From positions 1-64,000 of the forward strand of contig FOBR01000013.1 of the NCBI GenBank assembly GCA_900109895.1: a stretch of DNA of 64,000 bases. The letters are read 5' to 3'. The position numbers were made by a program, and so were the translations under genes. This document shows, piece after piece, positions 15,192-23,449 of the stretch; position 1 is the stretch's first letter; each line of letters starts with the position of its first letter. Origin of the DNA: a bacterium A37T11. Its GTDB lineage: Bacteria > Bacteroidota > Bacteroidia > Sphingobacteriales > Sphingobacteriaceae. Below the pieces are notes generated by a model, which was not told the DNA's origin, did not search any database, and was given only the letters and a program-made list of their open reading frames with translations.

Positions 15192-15770
15192 TCATTTATT
15201 CCCTTTTCCAATATCAAATCCTATACCTTTAGTTTCTGGCTTCGGCTTCTCGGCGGTTTCTTGAAGGCGGTCCAGGTATTGAAATATCAGTTCAATATTT
15301 TTATCATGACTGTCATGCCGGCGATTCTGCTTTTCAACAGCATTTTTTACTTGCTCAATCTGAAGCCTAATATCTGTAGTATCGGTTAGTAATTGGCGCA
15401 TGCGGGTAAATATCCGCAGAATTTGGATATTCACAGAAATGGCCCGATCGCTGTTTAAAATTCCAGAAAGCATGGCCACTCCCATTTCGCCGAAAGCAAA
15501 TGGGGGTTTCCTGGTTCCACCCCAACTTGATGTTCCAATTTGGAATATCAAGTTTTTAAATTCTTCATCAGTAAGCTGAAACATAAAATTGTCATCCGGA
15601 AAACGCTTTATGTTCCGTTTTACGGCTTTGTTTAAATTCCCCGTGACGACTCCATACAAAATTGCGAGGTCTTTGTCCAGCATGACCTTCTGCCCCCGGA
15701 TAATGTAGATCTGGTTCATAACCACCTCATCGGGCACTAAAATTTCTTGATTTGTAGCTGTTTTTGCCAT
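15192..15770 (-). CDS. ORF6N domain protein
   Basis: A 192-aa protein whose first 125 residues match the ORF6N domain known from phage and Bacteroidota DNA-binding or antirepressor-like proteins. It has IYIIRGQKVMLDKDLAILYGV (about 25-45), then NLNKAVKRNIKRFPDDNFMFQLT, then a Trp/Gly-rich loop, then FAFGEMGVAMLSGILNSDRAI, which closes the domain. The rest (about 130-192) is charged and helical, with a Pro/Lys-rich tail. There is no signal peptide, so it is cytoplasmic. Homologues are scattered singly through Sphingobacteria with no firm function; a link to mobile elements is inferred only from the domain. Confidence 0.88.
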   Translation of the reverse strand: MAKTATNQEILVPDEVVMNQIYIIRGQKVMLDKDLAILYGVVTGNLNKAVKRNIKRFPDDNFMFQLTDEEFKNLIFQIGTSSWGGTRKPPFAFGEMGVAMLSGILNSDRAISVNIQILRIFTRMRQLLTDTTDIRLQIEQVKNAVEKQNRRHDSHDKNIELIFQYLDRLQETAEKPKPETKGIGFDIGKGNK

Positions 15771-16109: not shown

Positions 16110-16658
16110 CTATTCCCCCCTCAGCACATACCTTCCCTCACCTCCCGGCACCACCTTCACCAGCTCCTTCAGCCCTTTTTGCCGCAGCAGGGCCTTCACG
16201 CGGCTGGGTTTAAGGATGATCTTGGAGGATAGTTTTTCGGCAATTTCTTCAGCGGTTTTGGGCTTCCGCAAAAAGGTGCTTGCTAAAAGCTCCTTCATCA
16301 GTTTTTCTTCCTTGGCGGTCTGGGCTTGCTTGGCCTGTACTTTCTTTTGTTTTTGTTCCGCTACGTAATCGCGCAGGGCTTTTGGCATTTGTTCGAAGGT
16401 GGGGACGTCATAATCGGGATTTCCCATTTGGTAATAATGGACACCGAAGTATAAAGCAATTTCTTCGGCATTTTCTATCCCAACGCTAATTTCGCCTCTT
16501 GTGATTTTTCCCACCTGCGTATCCGGCTTGTTAATATAATCTGCGAATAACGATCTATTTAATTTTGCTGCTTTGATATATTTAAGTAGTTGGTTCCCAA
16601 ATAACACCTTGACACTTGGTATTCCTATATCGTTAGTTTGTAAATATTTTTTCGACAT
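16110..16658 (-). CDS. Putative DNA-binding protein, Xre-like N-terminus plus winged-helix-like C-terminus
   Basis: A 182-aa cytoplasmic protein of unassigned function. Residues about 20-75 (LLKYIKAAKLNRSLFADYIN, then VGKITRGEISVGIENAEEIALYFGV) read like a degenerate Xre/Cro helix-turn-helix. A charged helix (about 98-118, EQKQKKVQAKQAQTAKEEKL) links to a C-terminal part (KTAEEIAEKLSSK, SRVKALLRQKGLKELVKV) resembling a winged helix. A broken paralogue lies downstream at 15899-16060. It is divergent from a rightward promoter at 16661-16691 that starts 3 bp from its own start codon, so it could regulate that promoter. The family match is by pattern only. Confidence 0.6.
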   Translation of the reverse strand: MSKKYLQTNDIGIPSVKVLFGNQLLKYIKAAKLNRSLFADYINKPDTQVGKITRGEISVGIENAEEIALYFGVHYYQMGNPDYDVPTFEQMPKALRDYVAEQKQKKVQAKQAQTAKEEKLMKELLASTFLRKPKTAEEIAEKLSSKIILKPSRVKALLRQKGLKELVKVVPGGEGRYVLRGE

Positions 16659-16660
16659 TA

Positions 16661-16691
16661 TTTGGTTATTAATTTTTTATTGTTACCTTTG
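16661..16691 (+). promoter_or_regulatory. Bacteroidota promoter TTTG-N19-TACCTTTG
   Basis: TTTG at 16661-16664 and TACCTTTG at 16684-16691, separated by 19 bp, match the -33/-7 consensus of the Bacteroidota primary sigma factor. Transcription would start near 16698 and run rightward into the leader region. It lies immediately beside the start of the divergent HTH gene. Confidence 0.6.
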
Positions 16692-16851
16692 CTTCATTGG
16701 GTTACTAAAGGCTATCCGTCAATCAGGAAAGCCCGTCGTAAACCGGAAAAATATGACCCCGATAAATCGGGATTAAACAGGTCTCTCGTCCAGAAGCCGT
16801 CAATTTCAGCAACGAGAAGACCGAATGTTCGCCCATTAGCTGAGTTTTATG

Positions 16852-16859
16852 TACTTTTG
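16852..16859 (+). promoter_or_regulatory. Second -7 box TACTTTTG
   Basis: An exact TAnnTTTG match followed by CAGG. The -33 position is poor (TTCG near 16828). Transcription from here would begin near 16866, just before the foldable element at 16874-16968. Confidence 0.45.
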
Positions 16860-16873
16860 CAGGTACATTCAGT

Positions 16874-16968
16874 GGGGCGGGCTATTCGCGTCTTGCTTTT
16901 GTTGCTACCCGACCTGGTCGGGATGGTTCTTGACGGCACCATGGGCAAAAGCGGCGGTAGCTCGCCCC
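16874..16968 (+). ncRNA. Putative structured leader RNA or riboswitch-like element
   Basis: Nested complementary segments predict a branched RNA on the plus strand. P1: GGGGCGGGCTA (16874-16884) with TAGCTCGCCCC (16958-16968), 11 pairs including one G-U. P2: GCTTTTG (16895-16901) with CAAAAGC (16946-16952). P3: CCCGACC (16908-16914) with GGTCGGG (16916-16922). P4: ATGGT (16923-16927) with ACCAT (16938-16942). Further hairpins follow, for example GGGTTT/AAACCC at 16972-16985. Frames crossing the region look like noncoding sequence. I do not recognise a named family. It precedes a 49-codon ORF and the TlpA-SusC-SusD genes. Confidence 0.5.
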
Positions 16969-17052
16969 TTTGGGTTTTTAAACCCCATCGGTCGCTTCCC
17001 CCAGCCTTTAGCGGGAGGCCTGTTTCTTAATCTTACTAACAATTAATAGATT

Positions 17053-17202
17053 ATGGAACAGACGTTTACTCACTTCCGTTACCCTAAATTCCCATCCAGC
17101 GCCTCGCGCGCTGCGGGAAACCCTGCCCTGGCCTCAACGCCCGGCATCATTTCCAAATCCCTTCAAAATCACCTCAAAAACGTTATTAAAAACCCGGAGT
17201 AA
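17053..17202 (+). CDS. Small ORF, 49 codons, unknown function
   Basis: ATG at 17053 to TAA at 17200-17202 encodes a 49-aa basic peptide beginning MEQTFTHFRYPKFPSS and ending NHLKNVIKNPE. It has no signal peptide, membrane segment or cysteine. The middle is Ala/Ser/Pro-rich and the end is a short amphipathic helix. It lies 84 bp after the foldable leader and is followed by a GC-rich hairpin at 17226-17246, so leader, ORF and hairpin may form one short transcript or an attenuation unit before the TlpA gene. I do not recognise the sequence. It could also be a chance frame. Confidence 0.4.
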   Translation: MEQTFTHFRYPKFPSSASRAAGNPALASTPGIISKSLQNHLKNVIKNPE

Positions 17203-17225
17203 CCTTCATTTCGTCCGCACGGCCC

Positions 17226-17246
17226 GCACGCATTTAAAATGCGTGC
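17226..17246 (+). terminator. GC-rich hairpin between small ORF and TlpA gene
   Basis: GCACGCATTT (17226-17235) pairs with AAATGCGTGC (17237-17246), followed by the moderately T-rich CCATTCTTT. A second imperfect palindrome (TGCACGCAA with TTGCGCGCG) covers about 17256-17278. It could be a terminator for the small ORF or an attenuator controlling entry into the TlpA-SusC-SusD genes. Confidence 0.4.
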
Positions 17247-17325
17247 GCCATTCTTTGCACGCAATGCAATTGCGCGCGAGCGATTGATTTAATTCATTGA
17301 TTTTTAACTAATCAACAAATGAAAC

Positions 17326-18819
17326 ATGAAGGTGATATACCCTCTGGGCATTCTATTGCCCAAACATACCCATTTTTTTTCAAAAAAAACGTTCCTGCGG
17401 GCCTGGTATTTTACCGGTACGCTCCTGTATTTTACCGCCGGGCTTTGGTACGGTACCAATGCTCAGGAAACCAATAATATAAAATCTACTAGCCTCTCTG
17501 ACAGCCTCGGTATCCCCGAAGGGGGCCTCAAAATCGGCGACTCCATCCCCGAAGCCCTCTGGCACCTGCCTTTGCAAGTGGTGAACCATCCGGAAGGGAA
17601 GGATACCATTACCCTGAACGATTACCGGGATAAAAAACTGATCATCCTGGATTTCTGGGCCACCTGGTGCAAACCGTGTATACAGTCCTTAAACGAGTTG
17701 AACAAATTTTATGGGACAACGGGCTATCAAGATCTCGCCGTGCTGCCTGTTACGTATCACGACCAGGCCACTGCGCTGGATTTTGTCAGGCAGGCTTCGT
17801 GGAAGTTTCCAAGCGTCAGTAGTGATAGCCTGCTTTCCCGGTATTTTCCCCACTATGCCATTCCCTTTCAGCTCTGGATCACAGATAACCGGGTCATAGC
17901 TACTCCGAAATGGTGGCTTGCCTCTGTAGAAAATATTACCAAAACCCTGGCGGGTGAACCGGTAACCCTGTCCAATACCGCTAAAAACGTAGAGCGCTAT
18001 ACGCCGCTGTTTTTAAAAGGGAACGGCGGTGATGGCCATCTGGCCCTGGTTCAGTCCGTTATTTCAACAGGTGATCCCGCTTTCAGAAGCTGGAAACTCT
18101 ATTTTCGGTCAGAAAAGGGCATTAGCATCATCGGTGGCCACAATGCGGACTTGTTCCAAAATCTATTCTACGATGCATTCAGGCCGTTCATCCACCTGGA
18201 GTTAGCCAATGAAGATGGTCTAGGGCTCGCCGTGGAACTTCCGGACAGCCTGAAGCGGCAGTTCCTCTCCCCACGTCCGCAACTGGCTGATTTCCCTGAT
18301 CCACAACAATATGATGACAGCCTAGGGAAATGGACGCGCAAGAACCGTTTCTCTTACCAACTGATCGTGCAAAAATCCTTGTCTCAACCGGAAGCCCTAG
18401 CGTGGATGAGGCAAGACCTGCTGCGTTGTTTTGGGGTCTATTATGGCATCGACGCCCATATCGGGAACAGGCCGCGTCGATTCCTTGTATTGCGTGTGCT
18501 TAAAAATAGACAGGAAACCCGTAGACTGCTCCACAGCAAAGGTGGTTCGCTACGCATATTAAGCCCCGGGGATGACAAAGACTACCAGTTACGCAATGCA
18601 CCGCTGGGCCTGATCCGGTCAAGGATCAACCAAGTGGCTCCATTCATGCCCTTTTTAGATGAAACGGGCCTTTCAGACCTGAAAGTCGACATAACGCTTT
18701 CAGCTCACAGTTCGCAAAATATCATAGTAGCCAATAAAGCCTTGGCCACTTATGGCCTCTGCTTATCCATCCTGGAAAAAGAGGTGCCCGTGTTAATTAT
18801 TTGTCCAAAGATCCCTTAA
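17326..18819 (+). CDS. TlpA-family thioredoxin-like protein with TIGR03435/DUF3738-like C-terminus
   Basis: A 497-aa exported protein. A hydrophobic segment at about 28-44 ends near TNAQ. A TlpA/AhpC-TSA fold spans about 65-205 with the redox motif WCKPC at 114-118 inside ILDFWATWCKPCI. The C-terminal half (about 230-497) has the layout of TIGR03435 (DUF3738) proteins: LPDSL, a helical middle, then DETGLSDLKVDITLS and a closing pair of strands with VPVLIICPKIP. Such redoxins often accompany SusC/SusD pairs in Sphingobacteria. The SusC gene starts 22 bp after its stop, so it is operonic. The redox partner is unknown, and the C-terminal assignment is by pattern memory. Confidence 0.8.
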   Translation: MKVIYPLGILLPKHTHFFSKKTFLRAWYFTGTLLYFTAGLWYGTNAQETNNIKSTSLSDSLGIPEGGLKIGDSIPEALWHLPLQVVNHPEGKDTITLNDYRDKKLIILDFWATWCKPCIQSLNELNKFYGTTGYQDLAVLPVTYHDQATALDFVRQASWKFPSVSSDSLLSRYFPHYAIPFQLWITDNRVIATPKWWLASVENITKTLAGEPVTLSNTAKNVERYTPLFLKGNGGDGHLALVQSVISTGDPAFRSWKLYFRSEKGISIIGGHNADLFQNLFYDAFRPFIHLELANEDGLGLAVELPDSLKRQFLSPRPQLADFPDPQQYDDSLGKWTRKNRFSYQLIVQKSLSQPEALAWMRQDLLRCFGVYYGIDAHIGNRPRRFLVLRVLKNRQETRRLLHSKGGSLRILSPGDDKDYQLRNAPLGLIRSRINQVAPFMPFLDETGLSDLKVDITLSAHSSQNIIVANKALATYGLCLSILEKEVPVLIICPKIP

Positions 18820-18841: not shown

Positions 18842-21800
18842 ATGAAATTAACAAGATTACTATACCTATTGGCTTCGCTGTCGTTTTCCGTTGGTTACGG
18901 ACAACAGCAACGGCTCACGGGCCAGGTCACTTCCGCCCTTGACCAGAGCCCGCTTGCAGGAGCGAGCCTCCGCCTTAAACTCAGCGGTAATGCCACGCAT
19001 TCAGGCCCTGATGGGCAGTTTAGGTTGCCTGTACCCAGCGGCCCTGACACGCTGCTTGTTCACTACCTGGGTTTTCAGGACCTGGAAGTAGCCCTATCAG
19101 TAAAGGCTTTGAGCTTTCTTCGTATTTCCCTCACTCCTGCCACATCCGAGCTACAAGAGGCCGTAGTGAACACCGGATACTACCAGGTGCCGATTGAACG
19201 CAGTACGGGTTCATTCACCCAGGTAGACCAGGCGTTGCTTAACCGAAGCACCGGCAGCAACCTGCTGCAACGGTTGGAAGGCGTGACCAGCGGACTACAG
19301 TTCAGCCGCAACCGCCTGCAGGGCGAAGACGTGTCCGGAACACCTGATTTACGGGTGCGCGGGTTGAGTACCATCGAATCCGATAACCGTCCGCTGATCA
19401 TTGTTGACAATTTTCCGTACGAAAGCGATATCAGCACATTAAATCCGAACGATGTACTCAGTGTCACCATTTTAAAGGATGCTGCTGCCGCTTCCATCTG
19501 GGGAGCCCGCGCCGGCAACGGCGTTATTGTGATCAGCACCAAGCAAGGCCAATATCAGCAAAGAAATCTGCTTTCATTTAACAGCAGCATCACCTCTGTA
19601 CAAAAGCCGGATCTTTTTTACAGCAAGAGCTTCTTGCCGTCTGCCACCGAAATGGCCATTGAAAAAGAACTATTTGATGCAGGTCTTGATCAGGAACAGG
19701 CCAATGTGCCCCTCCAGGCTTATACAGAATTGCTCATCCGCCAACGGGACGGCCTGATCAGTGAAGCAGATTTCGACCATGAAAGCAGACTGCTTGGGCA
19801 AAGCGATATACGGAAGGAAGCCCTTACCTATTTATACCAAACCACACTTGATCAGCAATACGCGCTGAATGCCAGTGGTGGCGGGAATGCCTACCGTTAT
19901 TATACCGGTTTGGGCTATGACCGACAGCGCGGCTCATCGATCGGAAACAACAACAGCCGGCTAACCATCAACACACAAAATACGTTTCAGTTATCCAAAC
20001 AGATAGAGGTCAGCACCGGCATCTGGTATGAATCCGGGCAAAAAACCAATAACGGGCTCACCATGGAAGACCTTAGCAGCCCGCTTATCGGCAATCCATC
20101 TACGTATAGCCGCCTGGCCGACGGACAAGGGCATGCCCTGCCCCTCGTCAGGGACTGGCGGCAGGCATATGTGGACGGGGCCGCCACGCTGGGATTGCTT
20201 GACTGGAATTACAGGCCGCTGGATGAGCTGCAATTGGCTGATAATAGCAGCCATAGCTCTGAAATACGCATCAACAGCCACATTACCTATCATTTTTTCG
20301 ACCACTTTGACCTGCAGGGCAGCTATCAGTACCTGCACAGCAACCAGGACGACCGGAATTATTATGCGCCGGACACATATTTTGTCAGAAACCTGGTCAA
20401 CCAGTTTACCCAGCCCAATGGCAACCTGATCATCCCGAATGGGGGCATCCTCCGAGGCAGCGGCCCTCAGCTCAATAGCAGTCATTCCGGACGTGTACAG
20501 CTCAACTATGCGGAAACGTTTCAGGGTTTGCATCAGATCGCCGCGCTTGCCGGGGTGGATATGCGGCAGCAAGTCTCCGCAAGCCAGCCCGGTTATTTGC
20601 TGTATAATTACGATGATGATGTGCGTACCAGTGATATCCTTTTTGACTACAGCATGTTCTACGAGCTGCAGCCCGAAGGATATAACTATGGCTATTTGCC
20701 TACACCCCCTACATCGACGGCTTACTTCACCAACAGGGAGCTCTCTTATTATGGCAATGCTTCCTATACGTATAAGGGCCGCTACATCGTTTCGGCCAGC
20801 AGCCGATGGGACGGCAGCAATCTGTTTGGGGTGAAAGCCAATCAACGGGGCGTGCCGCTATGGTCTGCCGGTCTAAGCTGGGAGCTTGACAAGGAGCCGT
20901 TTTACCGTCTGGCGGGCTTGCCTTATGCAAGACTACGCGCTACCTATGGTCGCAGCGGAAATGTCAATAAGACGATCAGCCACTACGCGGTAATCCGCTA
21001 CGGCAGCAATACCGTCACCGGCCTTCACAATGCATTATTAACAAGCCCCGGAAACCCATCGCTGCGTTGGGAAAAAGTAAACACTCTCAATACGGCCCTC
21101 GATCTGGCTACCTCCGACAAACGTATACAGGCCAGCCTGGAATACTACCTGAAAATCTCCACGGACCTGATCGGCGATAAATACATGGATCCGACCGTGG
21201 GAATTACCAATAACTACAAGATCAACTATGCAGATATGCGTACCCAGGGCTTTGACCTGCAGGTCACCGCGGTTCCGGTGCCGGGCCTCATCCGGTGGGA
21301 AAGCGTTTTGCTATTAAGCTATGTGCGCAATAAGATCACCCGTTTTGAAGCCCAGGAACTCACCAGTATTGATGACTATTTTCACTATACACCGCCTGTA
21401 AAAGGCCTTTCCAGAGACATGATGCTGGCATTGCCTTGGAACGGTCTTTCACATGAAAACGGGATGCCGGTGATCTATCAGGATGGGCTTGTCAGTACAG
21501 ATTACCGCGCGTATTACGAAAATTTTGATCCCGGATCGCTTGTTCAGGCCGGGTTAAGCGTGCCACCCTTTTTTGGCAGTTTCCGCAATACGCTACGCTG
21601 GAAGCAGTTGGAACTAAGTGTCCTTGTTTCGTTTAAAACAGGCTATGTATTCAGGCGGCGATCCATTGGTCCCGGGGCCGAATATTACAATGGAAACAAC
21701 GGTTTCCACACAGATTATCTCAAACGGTGGAAACAACCCGGTGATGAGGCCTTCACCAGCGTTCCTGCCGCCGTGGAGCCCGGTGTTTACCGACCTTCCA

Positions 21801-22063
21801 ACAATTACGTCGAAGCGGTGTACCGTGATTCAGAGGCCCTGATCAGTAAGGGCGATCATATCCGCCTCCAGGATATCCAATGCAGTTATACCCTGCCCGT
21901 CCGTAAGGGCTTTCTGGCTGGCAAAAACCTTCGCCTATATGCCTATGCCCGGGACCTCGGCATCCTGTGGCGTGCCAACAAAGAAGGGATCGACCCTGAC
22001 TATGCCCAGACCAACTACCCGCCCCCCGCATCCTATTCATTTGGGTTACAAGCTACATTCTAA
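18842..22063 (+). CDS. SusC/RagA-type TonB-dependent outer-membrane transporter
   Basis: A 1073-aa protein with a signal peptide (to about residue 20, YGQQQ), a carboxypeptidase-regulatory-like domain (about 24-100, LTGQVTSALDQSPLAGASL), a plug with LRVRGLSTIESDNRPLIIVDNFPYE, and a C-terminal barrel ending SFGLQATF. No clear DEVVVVGYG-like TonB box is present. In its place stands ELQEAVVNTGYYQVP, a variant common in the redoxin-associated SusC subgroup. The plug motif ILKDAAAASIWGARAGNGVIVI carries W where most have Y. It lies between the TlpA gene and its SusD. The substrate is not predictable and may be a peptide or protein. Confidence 0.94.
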   Translation: MKLTRLLYLLASLSFSVGYGQQQRLTGQVTSALDQSPLAGASLRLKLSGNATHSGPDGQFRLPVPSGPDTLLVHYLGFQDLEVALSVKALSFLRISLTPATSELQEAVVNTGYYQVPIERSTGSFTQVDQALLNRSTGSNLLQRLEGVTSGLQFSRNRLQGEDVSGTPDLRVRGLSTIESDNRPLIIVDNFPYESDISTLNPNDVLSVTILKDAAAASIWGARAGNGVIVISTKQGQYQQRNLLSFNSSITSVQKPDLFYSKSFLPSATEMAIEKELFDAGLDQEQANVPLQAYTELLIRQRDGLISEADFDHESRLLGQSDIRKEALTYLYQTTLDQQYALNASGGGNAYRYYTGLGYDRQRGSSIGNNNSRLTINTQNTFQLSKQIEVSTGIWYESGQKTNNGLTMEDLSSPLIGNPSTYSRLADGQGHALPLVRDWRQAYVDGAATLGLLDWNYRPLDELQLADNSSHSSEIRINSHITYHFFDHFDLQGSYQYLHSNQDDRNYYAPDTYFVRNLVNQFTQPNGNLIIPNGGILRGSGPQLNSSHSGRVQLNYAETFQGLHQIAALAGVDMRQQVSASQPGYLLYNYDDDVRTSDILFDYSMFYELQPEGYNYGYLPTPPTSTAYFTNRELSYYGNASYTYKGRYIVSASSRWDGSNLFGVKANQRGVPLWSAGLSWELDKEPFYRLAGLPYARLRATYGRSGNVNKTISHYAVIRYGSNTVTGLHNALLTSPGNPSLRWEKVNTLNTALDLATSDKRIQASLEYYLKISTDLIGDKYMDPTVGITNNYKINYADMRTQGFDLQVTAVPVPGLIRWESVLLLSYVRNKITRFEAQELTSIDDYFHYTPPVKGLSRDMMLALPWNGLSHENGMPVIYQDGLVSTDYRAYYENFDPGSLVQAGLSVPPFFGSFRNTLRWKQLELSVLVSFKTGYVFRRRSIGPGAEYYNGNNGFHTDYLKRWKQPGDEAFTSVPAAVEPGVYRPSNNYVEAVYRDSEALISKGDHIRLQDIQCSYTLPVRKGFLAGKNLRLYAYARDLGILWRANKEGIDPDYAQTNYPPPASYSFGLQATF

Positions 22064-22081
22064 TTCTTTAAAATATTAGTG

Positions 22082-23449
22082 ATGAAAAAACGTATTATAA
22101 TACATTATTCTTTTCTGTTATTGGCCCTCGGCGCTTGTGGCAAGGGATTTCTTGCGGTAAAATACGACAAAAGCGTCGTTACACCCACCACACTGGCCGA
22201 TTACCAGGCCTTGTTGCATGGCAATATGCAAACACCCAGCTCGCATGAGCTCGGCATTACCGGATCCGATGAATTTTATCTGAGCAATGCTTCCTGGCAG
22301 TCGCTCGTGCAACCTTATCTTAAAAACGGTTATATATGGGCCGATGACATATATGAGCAGCAGCCCTGCGAGGATTACAACCGGGCTTACAGCCGCATCC
22401 TGACTGCAAATATTGTCTTGGACGGGCTGGATAAACTAACCCCGAATGAAGATGAAAAACAACAATGGGACCAGGCAAAGGGGGCAGCACTCTATTTCAG
22501 GGCTGAAAAATTTTATCAGCTGGCGCAGCTTTTCTGCAAGCCTTACTACAAAGAAACCGCCACAATAGATCCCGGAATAGCCTTACGCCTCTCCCCGGAT
22601 GTGGAGCAAGCCTCTCAGCGCGCTTCGGTGGCCGAAACTTATCAGCAGATCTGTGCAGATCTATTGGCGGCCCTCCCTTTGCTTCCAGTCATTTCGCAGA
22701 CCAATCTGCATCCGTCCAAAGCCGCGGCAAATGCCTTGTTTGCCAAAACCTATTTGCTCATGGGTGATTATGTCAGCGCTGCCGGCTATGCGGCCGACTG
22801 CTTATCGCAGCAGAACATGCTGATCAATTATCAAACCCTATCCAAGGATTCAAATACGCCGTTCCCGGCCTATGCAGAAGGCAATGAGGAAGTCATCCTG
22901 CTGTCCTATACTGCCAATATACCCATTGTTGCCAGCTCGCGCTTCAATGCCGATACCACCTTGTTGGCCCTATACCAGTCAGGAGATCTCAGAAACGCTA
23001 TTTTTTATCGTACCAACACAGACGGCAGGATCCTGTTCAAAGGTTCGTATGCCGGAAGTGCCTATTATTTTACGGGACTATCCACCAGTGAGGTGTGGCT
23101 GATTAGTGCAGAGTGCCATGCACGACTGGGCCAATTGGGGAAAGCGATGAACGATATTAATACCCTGCGAAAAACCCGTTTCAGCCCGGAACAATATGTC
23201 CCTCTTGAAGCTGCAGATGAACAGCAGGCCTTGAGGCTTGTCCTGGAAGAACGCCGGCTTGAACTGGTGATGCGGGGTACGCGTTGGGAGGATCTGAGAA
23301 GGCTGAACAATGAGCCGGCATTTGCAAAAACACTGGTGAGGCAAGTGAATGATCAGCGTTACGAACTATTGCCCAATAGCCCGCGCTACGTATGGCCATT
23401 ACCCGATGATGCCATAAATTTCGGACATCTCACACAGAATCCCCGCTAA
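22082..23449 (+). CDS. SusD/RagB-type lipoprotein
   Basis: A 455-aa lipoprotein partner of the upstream SusC. ATG 22082 is preferred over GTG 22079. The signal is MKKRIIIHYSFLLLALGAC with the lipobox LGAC. SusD-type helices are recognisable (AALYFRAEKFYQLAQLF near 137-153, EVWLISAECHARLGQLGKAM, LEERRLELVMRGTRWEDLRR), and the end YVWPLPDDAINFGHLTQNPR is close to the usual YPIP segment. It begins 18 bp after the SusC stop, and a strong terminator follows at 23454-23489, so TlpA-SusC-SusD form one operon. Confidence 0.94.
   Translation: MKKRIIIHYSFLLLALGACGKGFLAVKYDKSVVTPTTLADYQALLHGNMQTPSSHELGITGSDEFYLSNASWQSLVQPYLKNGYIWADDIYEQQPCEDYNRAYSRILTANIVLDGLDKLTPNEDEKQQWDQAKGAALYFRAEKFYQLAQLFCKPYYKETATIDPGIALRLSPDVEQASQRASVAETYQQICADLLAALPLLPVISQTNLHPSKAAANALFAKTYLLMGDYVSAAGYAADCLSQQNMLINYQTLSKDSNTPFPAYAEGNEEVILLSYTANIPIVASSRFNADTTLLALYQSGDLRNAIFYRTNTDGRILFKGSYAGSAYYFTGLSTSEVWLISAECHARLGQLGKAMNDINTLRKTRFSPEQYVPLEAADEQQALRLVLEERRLELVMRGTRWEDLRRLNNEPAFAKTLVRQVNDQRYELLPNSPRYVWPLPDDAINFGHLTQNPR

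Follow-up and report, generated by a model that had tools for sequence, protein, structure and literature searches.

The window (the whole analysed stretch of DNA, 64,000 nucleotides) harbors, between a divergent regulator gene and a TlpA-SusC-SusD gene set, a region which an earlier note had described as an unnamed nested RNA structure at positions 16852–17052. The four complementary segment pairs of that description exist, nest and equal the minimum free energy fold, and overall its observation is confirmed in part and its interpretation likewise supported in part. The element has roughly double the length then delimited, and the kissing loop, alternative helices, start-codon hairpin and conserved leader peptide described below were absent from that account. 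The following features are distinguished (coordinates in the window, strand):

16110–16658 (−): divergent gene of an HTH (HTH_3/XRE-like) regulator (Pfam HTH_3, E 1.9e-5)
16662–16691 (+): likely promoter predicted from sequence, TTG at 16662–16664 and −7 box TACCTTTG at 16684–16691
16699–16744 (+): 5′ hairpin in which the kissing word CCGTCAA occurs a second time (16716–16722)
16775–16789 (+): arm L (AAACAGGTCTCTCGT), predicted partner of arm R or, alternatively, of arm B
16797–16803 (+): kissing word K1, CCGTCAA, in the loop of the L:R hairpin
16812–16822 (+): arm R of this 5′ hairpin (78.5% and 89.2% of cells paired in helices 1 and 2)
16830–16879 (+): middle hairpin, alternative to P1, with compensatory changes; helices CGCCC 16830–16834/GGGCG 16875–16879, CTGA 16840–16843/TCAG 16869–16872 and ATGTAC 16849–16854/GTACAT 16863–16868
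16870–16972 (+): core of 33 pairs with covariation; helices P1 16874–16884/16958–16968 with flanks, P2 16895–16901/16946–16952, P3 16908–16913/16917–16922 and P4 16924–16927/16938–16941
16930–16936 (+): kissing word K2, TTGACGG, in the P4 loop
17012–17032 (+): arm B, predicted partner of L (long range) or of C (start-codon hairpin)
17049–17061 (+): arm C over the leader-ORF ATG at 17053–17055 (duplex prediction)
17053–17202 (+): leader ORF of 49 codons, ending ...LKNVIKNPE-stop
17326–18819 (+): gene of a TlpA/AhpC-like thioredoxin-fold protein (Pfam AhpC-TSA)
18842–22063 (+): SusC-type TonB-dependent receptor gene (Pfam Plug and barrel; STN not found)
22079–23449 (+): gene of a SusD-like lipoprotein (Pfam SusD-like_3)

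An ORF6N-domain gene (15192–15770, minus strand) adjoins the HTH gene.

Occurrence of the element in Sphingobacteriaceae

A BLASTN search of the window's own genome yielded two diverged copies (80% and 73% identity), both located between a divergent gene of about 180 amino acids and a SusC-type gene. Among 100 genomes (its own and 99 relatives) matches were found nowhere but in this genome, and covariance models were therefore employed. Model R1, built from the three copies in the window's genome, matches 68 of 301 Sphingobacteriaceae genomes (full-length, E ≤ 0.01), with six matches in the window's genome. Sixty R1 places, fetched with their flanks and with the match recovered in each, constitute together with the three seed copies the first set of 63 loci. 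Model R2, trained on 61 of these loci, includes the P4 loop, excludes K1 and matches 89 of the 301 genomes, representing 9 of 25 genera (E ≤ 0.001), with seven places in the window's genome. At the class level it matched 4 of 395 genomes, namely three Sphingobacteriaceae and one (G585) from another family, and a search of named genomes with a consensus pattern returned 40 stretches, 37 of them under the name Pedobacter, including two copies in P. suwonensis DSM 18130. A held-out set of 60 loci was composed of 42 places found by R2 only and 18 previously unused R1 places (G235:C5, G243:C6:939285 and G213:C11 being left out); it includes close relatives of one another or of first-set loci.

The covariance search in Sphingobacteriaceae that had been suggested in the earlier note thus revealed a family with compensatory changes in the core stems. 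The Rfam scan suggested alongside gave no match at the gathering thresholds of release 15 in the window and ten loci carrying the RNA (11 sources), and with relaxed thresholds 601 bases of L062 gave nothing near a gathering score, in agreement with the family being unnamed. No published description of the element was recognised in titles and the beginnings of abstracts, preprints and most subscription journals lying outside this scope, and the element is apparently an RNA class new to the record.

The RNA is also present in L112, L146 and G585 (L226), that is, in records named Flavobacterium or Flavobacteriaceae plus one genome of another family, which could reflect either transfer or misnaming.

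Core, kissing loop and alternative helices

Folding energy alone makes a weak case for the single window sequence (z −1.71; an equally good fold in 13 of 200 shuffles); the core is settled by comparison. In an alignment of 61 cores (A8; the near-duplicates L097 and L106 of the 63 loci were left out) the 33 core pairs are standard in 92.7% of cells, with many G-U pairs, and double changes occur in 28 of the 33, compared with 16.8 ± 1.8 for shuffles that ignore relatedness (0 of 500 as high). In a second control, which retains relatedness, the partners were slid by one to three columns and pairing fell to 37–53%. P3 is the weakest core helix, with 76.0% of cells paired. The core hence displays the conserved secondary structure with compensatory changes that characterizes structured cis-regulatory RNAs, and the hairpin at 16874–16968 proposed earlier is real, forming the core of a structured leader of about 350 nt. 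Its 11-bp, 7-bp (16895–16901 with 16946–16952) and 5-bp helices were correctly delimited; the remaining one, given as 16908–16914 with 16916–16922, exists with other limits, since it would enclose a single nucleotide, whereas the fold contains 16908–16913 with 16917–16922 and a three-nucleotide loop. Judged from its sequence, the core with its several helices and conserved internal loops resembles a riboswitch in anatomy.

The decisive feature, supported by comparison, is a 7-bp kissing (loop-loop) pairing: TTGACGG (16930–16936), in the loop of P4, is exactly complementary to 16797–16803 in the loop of a hairpin further upstream. Across the loci K2 reads TTGACGG, CTGGCGG, TTAGCGG, TTGGTCG, TTTGCGG or TTGGTGG and the partner co-varies, with new words contributed by the held-out loci, e.g. 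ATCGCCAAA (L189) and AAAACGGTCAA (L213). In alignment A9, which comprises 59 sequences (of the 63 loci L096, L097, L106 and, without stated reason, L073 are left out), 99.8% of the K1:K2 cells are paired, a figure outside which L096 with its different 5′ half falls; double changes are seen in five of the seven pairs, one of which has 26 double-changed cells. A perfect match of at least 7 bp exists in 61 of 63 first-set loci and 55 of 60 held-out loci, while swapped partners with other words reach such a match in 13%. The first-set exceptions are L096 and L015, the latter with 6 bp at the usual place and its exact word (CCGTCGA) solely in an extra 5′ hairpin. The held-out exceptions are L228, whose 5′ half is altered like that of L096, as well as L209, L224, L225 and L243; a complementary word is discernible by eye at another distance in L209, L224 and L225, and one of 6 bp in L243. 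In L089 the P4 loop is complementary to K1. An exact second kissing word is found in the 5′ hairpin of the window, L016 and L049, and a 6-of-7 word in that of L050; within the first set of 63, only copies from the window's genome have an exact one, and this second word might rival K1 in pairing with the P4 loop.

In L096 and L228 the core is intact, while the 5′ half is different and both K1 and arm L are gone; these are perhaps decaying elements.

The duplexes L:R, L:B and B:C are predicted in most of the 56 loci examined, the best B:C pairing being weak or displaced in at least six (L077, L080, L095, L097, L098 and L105). Upon comparison with the median of swapped partners less than 60% identical (112 loci), the own partner lies above the median in 100 loci for L:R, 91 for B:C and 79 for L:B, the weakest helix in this respect. 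By complementarity, mutually exclusive helices are thus predicted at the start codon in most loci, where the leader start codon would reside in a hairpin competing with a long-range helix. Compensatory changes indicate a further mutually exclusive pair, as the 5′ strand of P1 alternatively pairs upstream within the middle hairpin. Here 9 of 11 aligned pairs have changed on both sides and 86.5% of cells are paired, the CGCCC/GGGCG part being based solely on the window and the other copies in its genome. This hairpin was judged by the aligned-column count because a loose stem scan around the place of the enclosed TAnnTTTG box passes nearly all loci (121 of 123).

The promoter-like TAnnTTTG string (TACTTTTG, 16852–16859), from which an RNA start near 16866 had been deduced, is indeed present, yet it sits in arm and loop of the middle hairpin and does not appear to serve as a promoter: at this place TAnnTTTG occurs in 55 of 123 loci and the full TTG-N17..23-TAnnTTTG pattern in 2. 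Of 123 loci, 78 have the full pattern between −330 and −105 (random stretches: 36 of 1230); in 75 of the 78 it ends 131–190 nt before the core, and in the window it is located at 16662–16691. Transcription probably starts near 16698, about 170 nt upstream of the former estimate, and as this promoter precedes all parts, all elements would share one transcript.

Leader peptide and downstream genes

The statement that nothing in the interval suggests a coding role holds for the core, but a conserved short ORF begins at 17053, just beyond it. ORFs were chosen by position only, as the ATG nearest to +71 after the core (+45 to +95) that opens 15–60 codons. Such an ORF exists in 115 of 123 loci, eight having none at the expected place. 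Pro is the next to last residue (−2) in 113 of the 115 ORFs and is lacking there in two; further Pro residues within the last 11 positions are found at −3 (19 ORFs) and −10 (17), and elsewhere in at most three. The Pro −2 is encoded by all four codons (CCA 48, CCT 22, CCG 22, CCC 21) and all three stop codons are in use, which argues for selection acting on the peptide. The C-terminal consensus is LLKN[VI]I[CR][SA]P[ES]-stop, and with [CR][SA]P[ES] the ORFs have the hallmark of arrest peptides (RAPP-like, NAP/NSP-stop), namely a short upstream ORF with a conserved Pro-bearing C-terminal motif. Pro is the very last residue in only 3 of the 115 ORFs, which places them outside the NAP-stop/NSP-stop group itself. 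The ORFs span 15–49 codons with clusters at 34–38 and 43–49. The ORF of L096 is short and devoid of the Pro end, and L228 has none at the expected place.

In 113 of 115 loci the ORF contains more C than G, a bias that would favour Rho action on an untranslated ORF and is at most suggestive of its involvement; around the ORF the C-over-G excess surpasses the 90th percentile of control stretches in 22% of loci only. A scan for terminator-like patterns returned several hairpins in the window before the next gene, and a 10-bp hairpin at 17225–17247, between leader ORF and TlpA-like gene, is terminator-like, so that intrinsic attenuation is possible as well.

An ORF of at least 500 amino acids follows on the same strand in 57 of the 63 first-set loci; the other six have none in the stretch examined, so a SusC operon need not follow every copy. 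Among the downstream genes scanned at first-set loci, Plug was detected in 45 of 45 and STN in 1 of 45, and the operons behind the RNA thus encode mostly SusC proteins without an STN domain. A TlpA/AhpC-like gene often intervenes between RNA and SusC (Pfam match in 32 of 39 middle genes, window and other loci), while in other copies SusC directly follows the leader. This layout bears out the earlier reading as a cis-acting structured leader, usually ahead of TlpA-SusC-SusD or SusC-SusD genes. On the other side, 53 of the 63 loci have a divergent ORF no more than 720 nt upstream. HTH families are a minority among these 53 genes (HTH_3 8, HTH_26 5, HTH_19 4); HTH_3 is found at the window and L015, and none at L016.

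The window's genome contains 50 SusC matches (E ≤ 1e-60), three of which were left out of the inspection of upstream regions, and it appears to split its SusC paralogs into STN-bearing and STN-less ones. Of 20 further paralogs taken as STN-less by their length, 10 are preceded by a leader peptide at a distance of up to 3 kb, as against 0 of 20 long paralogs. By N-terminal scan, STN was found in all 11 long paralogs tested and in none of six peptide-bearing paralogs tested, some of these fragments being short. Two of the 20 paralogs taken as STN-less do possess STN, L260 and L263 (just below the Pfam cut-off), both without peptide. The weakest of the ten peptide loci is L261, a 17-codon ORF at −1513. 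R1 finds the RNA at one of the ten (L249). Word pairs of the K1:K2 type were identified by script in L246 (8), L247 (8), L249 (12) and L262 (7) and by eye in L245, L248, L251 and L255, with L250 bearing an 11-bp pair in another setting; pairs at loci beyond R1 suggest that the family is wider than the models reach.

Proposed control and alternative readings

With rather better than even confidence, the comparative sequence data are taken to represent a new family of cis-acting leader RNAs that would gate an arrest-type leader peptide, which in turn would set SusC/SusD operon expression; in Pedobacter and relatives the RNA seems to switch access to the start of a very short gene preceding SusC/SusD. 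All parts would reside on one transcript from near 16698. In the OFF state L:R would be formed and kiss P4, leaving arm B free to seal the start codon of the ORF, and in the ON state L would pair with B and leave the start codon open. Synthesis of the peptide would cause the translating ribosome to slow or stop at Pro-X-stop, and termination ahead of SusC, perhaps Rho-dependent, would be prevented by ribosomes occupying the C-rich ORF. Candidate triggers of the switch are a metabolite, a protein or the imported substrate.

Bacteroidota possess dozens of SusC/SusD systems, the control of which has been described chiefly via sigma/anti-sigma pairs and two-component sensors. It is tentatively proposed, as an idea that may well prove wrong, that at STN-less SusC proteins of Sphingobacteriaceae a two-stage gate of kissing-loop sensor RNA and arrest-type peptide might replace trans-envelope sigma/anti-sigma signalling, each operon having its own RNA sensor and its own kissing word. 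STN-less SusC with RNA or peptide would offer a testable second mode of SusC control, and the element provides an RNA family whose tertiary contact stands out unusually clearly, as well as a fresh set of candidate arrest peptides.

By analogy, the element would work like riboswitch-plus-uORF leaders and like arrest-peptide control of TonB-dependent transporters, while lying outside the named families tested. In Bordetella the uORF CruR (DUF2946) with a C-terminal RAPP arrest motif controls a copper-regulated TonB-dependent transporter via Rho; it has 145 residues, is predicted to be exported, contains CXXC, and its mRNA is argued not to sense copper itself (PMC9426467). Shared with it is an upstream ORF with a C-terminal Pro motif before a TonB-dependent transporter gene, whereas the peptides described here have 15–49 residues, end in Pro-X-stop and follow a large structured RNA; as judged from peptide length and motif, they are not CruR-type uORFs (DUF2946, CXXC, RAPP). 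Bacteroidota arrest peptides ending in NSP-stop or NAP-stop stall with the stop codon in the A site, and RAPE and RAPS are among the motifs searched in the same work (PMC10987492). Like the present peptides these are Bacteroidota leaders with a conserved Pro at the C-terminus; unlike them, they precede secA/secDF and end in Pro, not in Pro-X before SusC operons. The B12 riboswitch-uORF leaders of metE and ppe2 from M. tuberculosis (PMC11260477) likewise join an RNA switch to a uORF, translated in their case, but they are cobalamin riboswitches, whereas here no Rfam family reached the gathering score. The same absence of a gathering-score match in the window and ten loci separates the element from Pedo-repair (RF01715), a Pedobacter RNA motif found by comparison (PMC2864571), assuming that RF01715 is still part of release 15.

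Other readings are not exclusive of the gated arrest peptide, and their odds overlap with its own. A plain ligand-binding riboswitch, the core of which would bind a metabolite of the SusCD cargo and control initiation of the leader ORF only, with the ORF coupling without arrest, is possible though doubtful. Multi-helix core, internal loops, kissing loop and start-codon platform as well as the published B12 riboswitch acting with a uORF (PMC11260477) are in line with it, but the last approximately eight residues are conserved as amino acids, so the peptide itself should have a function, and the gene context points to no ligand. The short ORF might instead encode a functional small protein or exported signal, the level of which the RNA merely holds low. 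The conserved C-terminal motif and the clustered lengths would fit such a role, which is nevertheless improbable given 15-codon ORFs (L209, L225 and L226) that retain hardly more than the Pro-rich end, dissimilar N-termini among loci and the lack of any signal peptide discernible by eye.

Kissing loops are typical of antisense RNAs, and K1 and K2 could in principle belong to two RNAs, a small RNA from the upstream promoter kissing the leader of a transcript that starts near 16866. This is quite improbable: TAnnTTTG does occur between K1 and K2 in the 55 loci mentioned, but the full promoter is there in two, and the middle hairpin (compensatory changes) and L:B (complementarity) span the proposed start. 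Least credible, and indeed highly improbable, is an element acting at the DNA level, with inverted repeats that would form an invertible promoter or be operators of the HTH protein encoded divergently from the promoter region at the window and L015. Against it, the stem arms vary yet stay complementary with many G-U pairs, the words differ by locus, HTH genes are the minority noted above and only 2 of 123 loci have a full promoter between the repeats.

Some minor observations concern the region behind the leader ORF. Several Pedobacter-type loci (L062, L079, L081, L082 and others) have, at about +440 to +450 after the core, another mini-ORF of some 21 codons that ends FDRLYALKPKNP[VE]-stop, again Pro-X-stop. 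Small hairpins of varying sequence are found inside the start of the downstream gene (17326–17373 in the window, the first approximately 48 nt elsewhere), with a mean z of −1.1 for 106 distinct sequences, 52 of them below −1, as calculated with base shuffles and no control region. In addition, N-terminal words such as LYSMGRYCPNF or GESYAL recur ahead of the signal peptide of the downstream gene.
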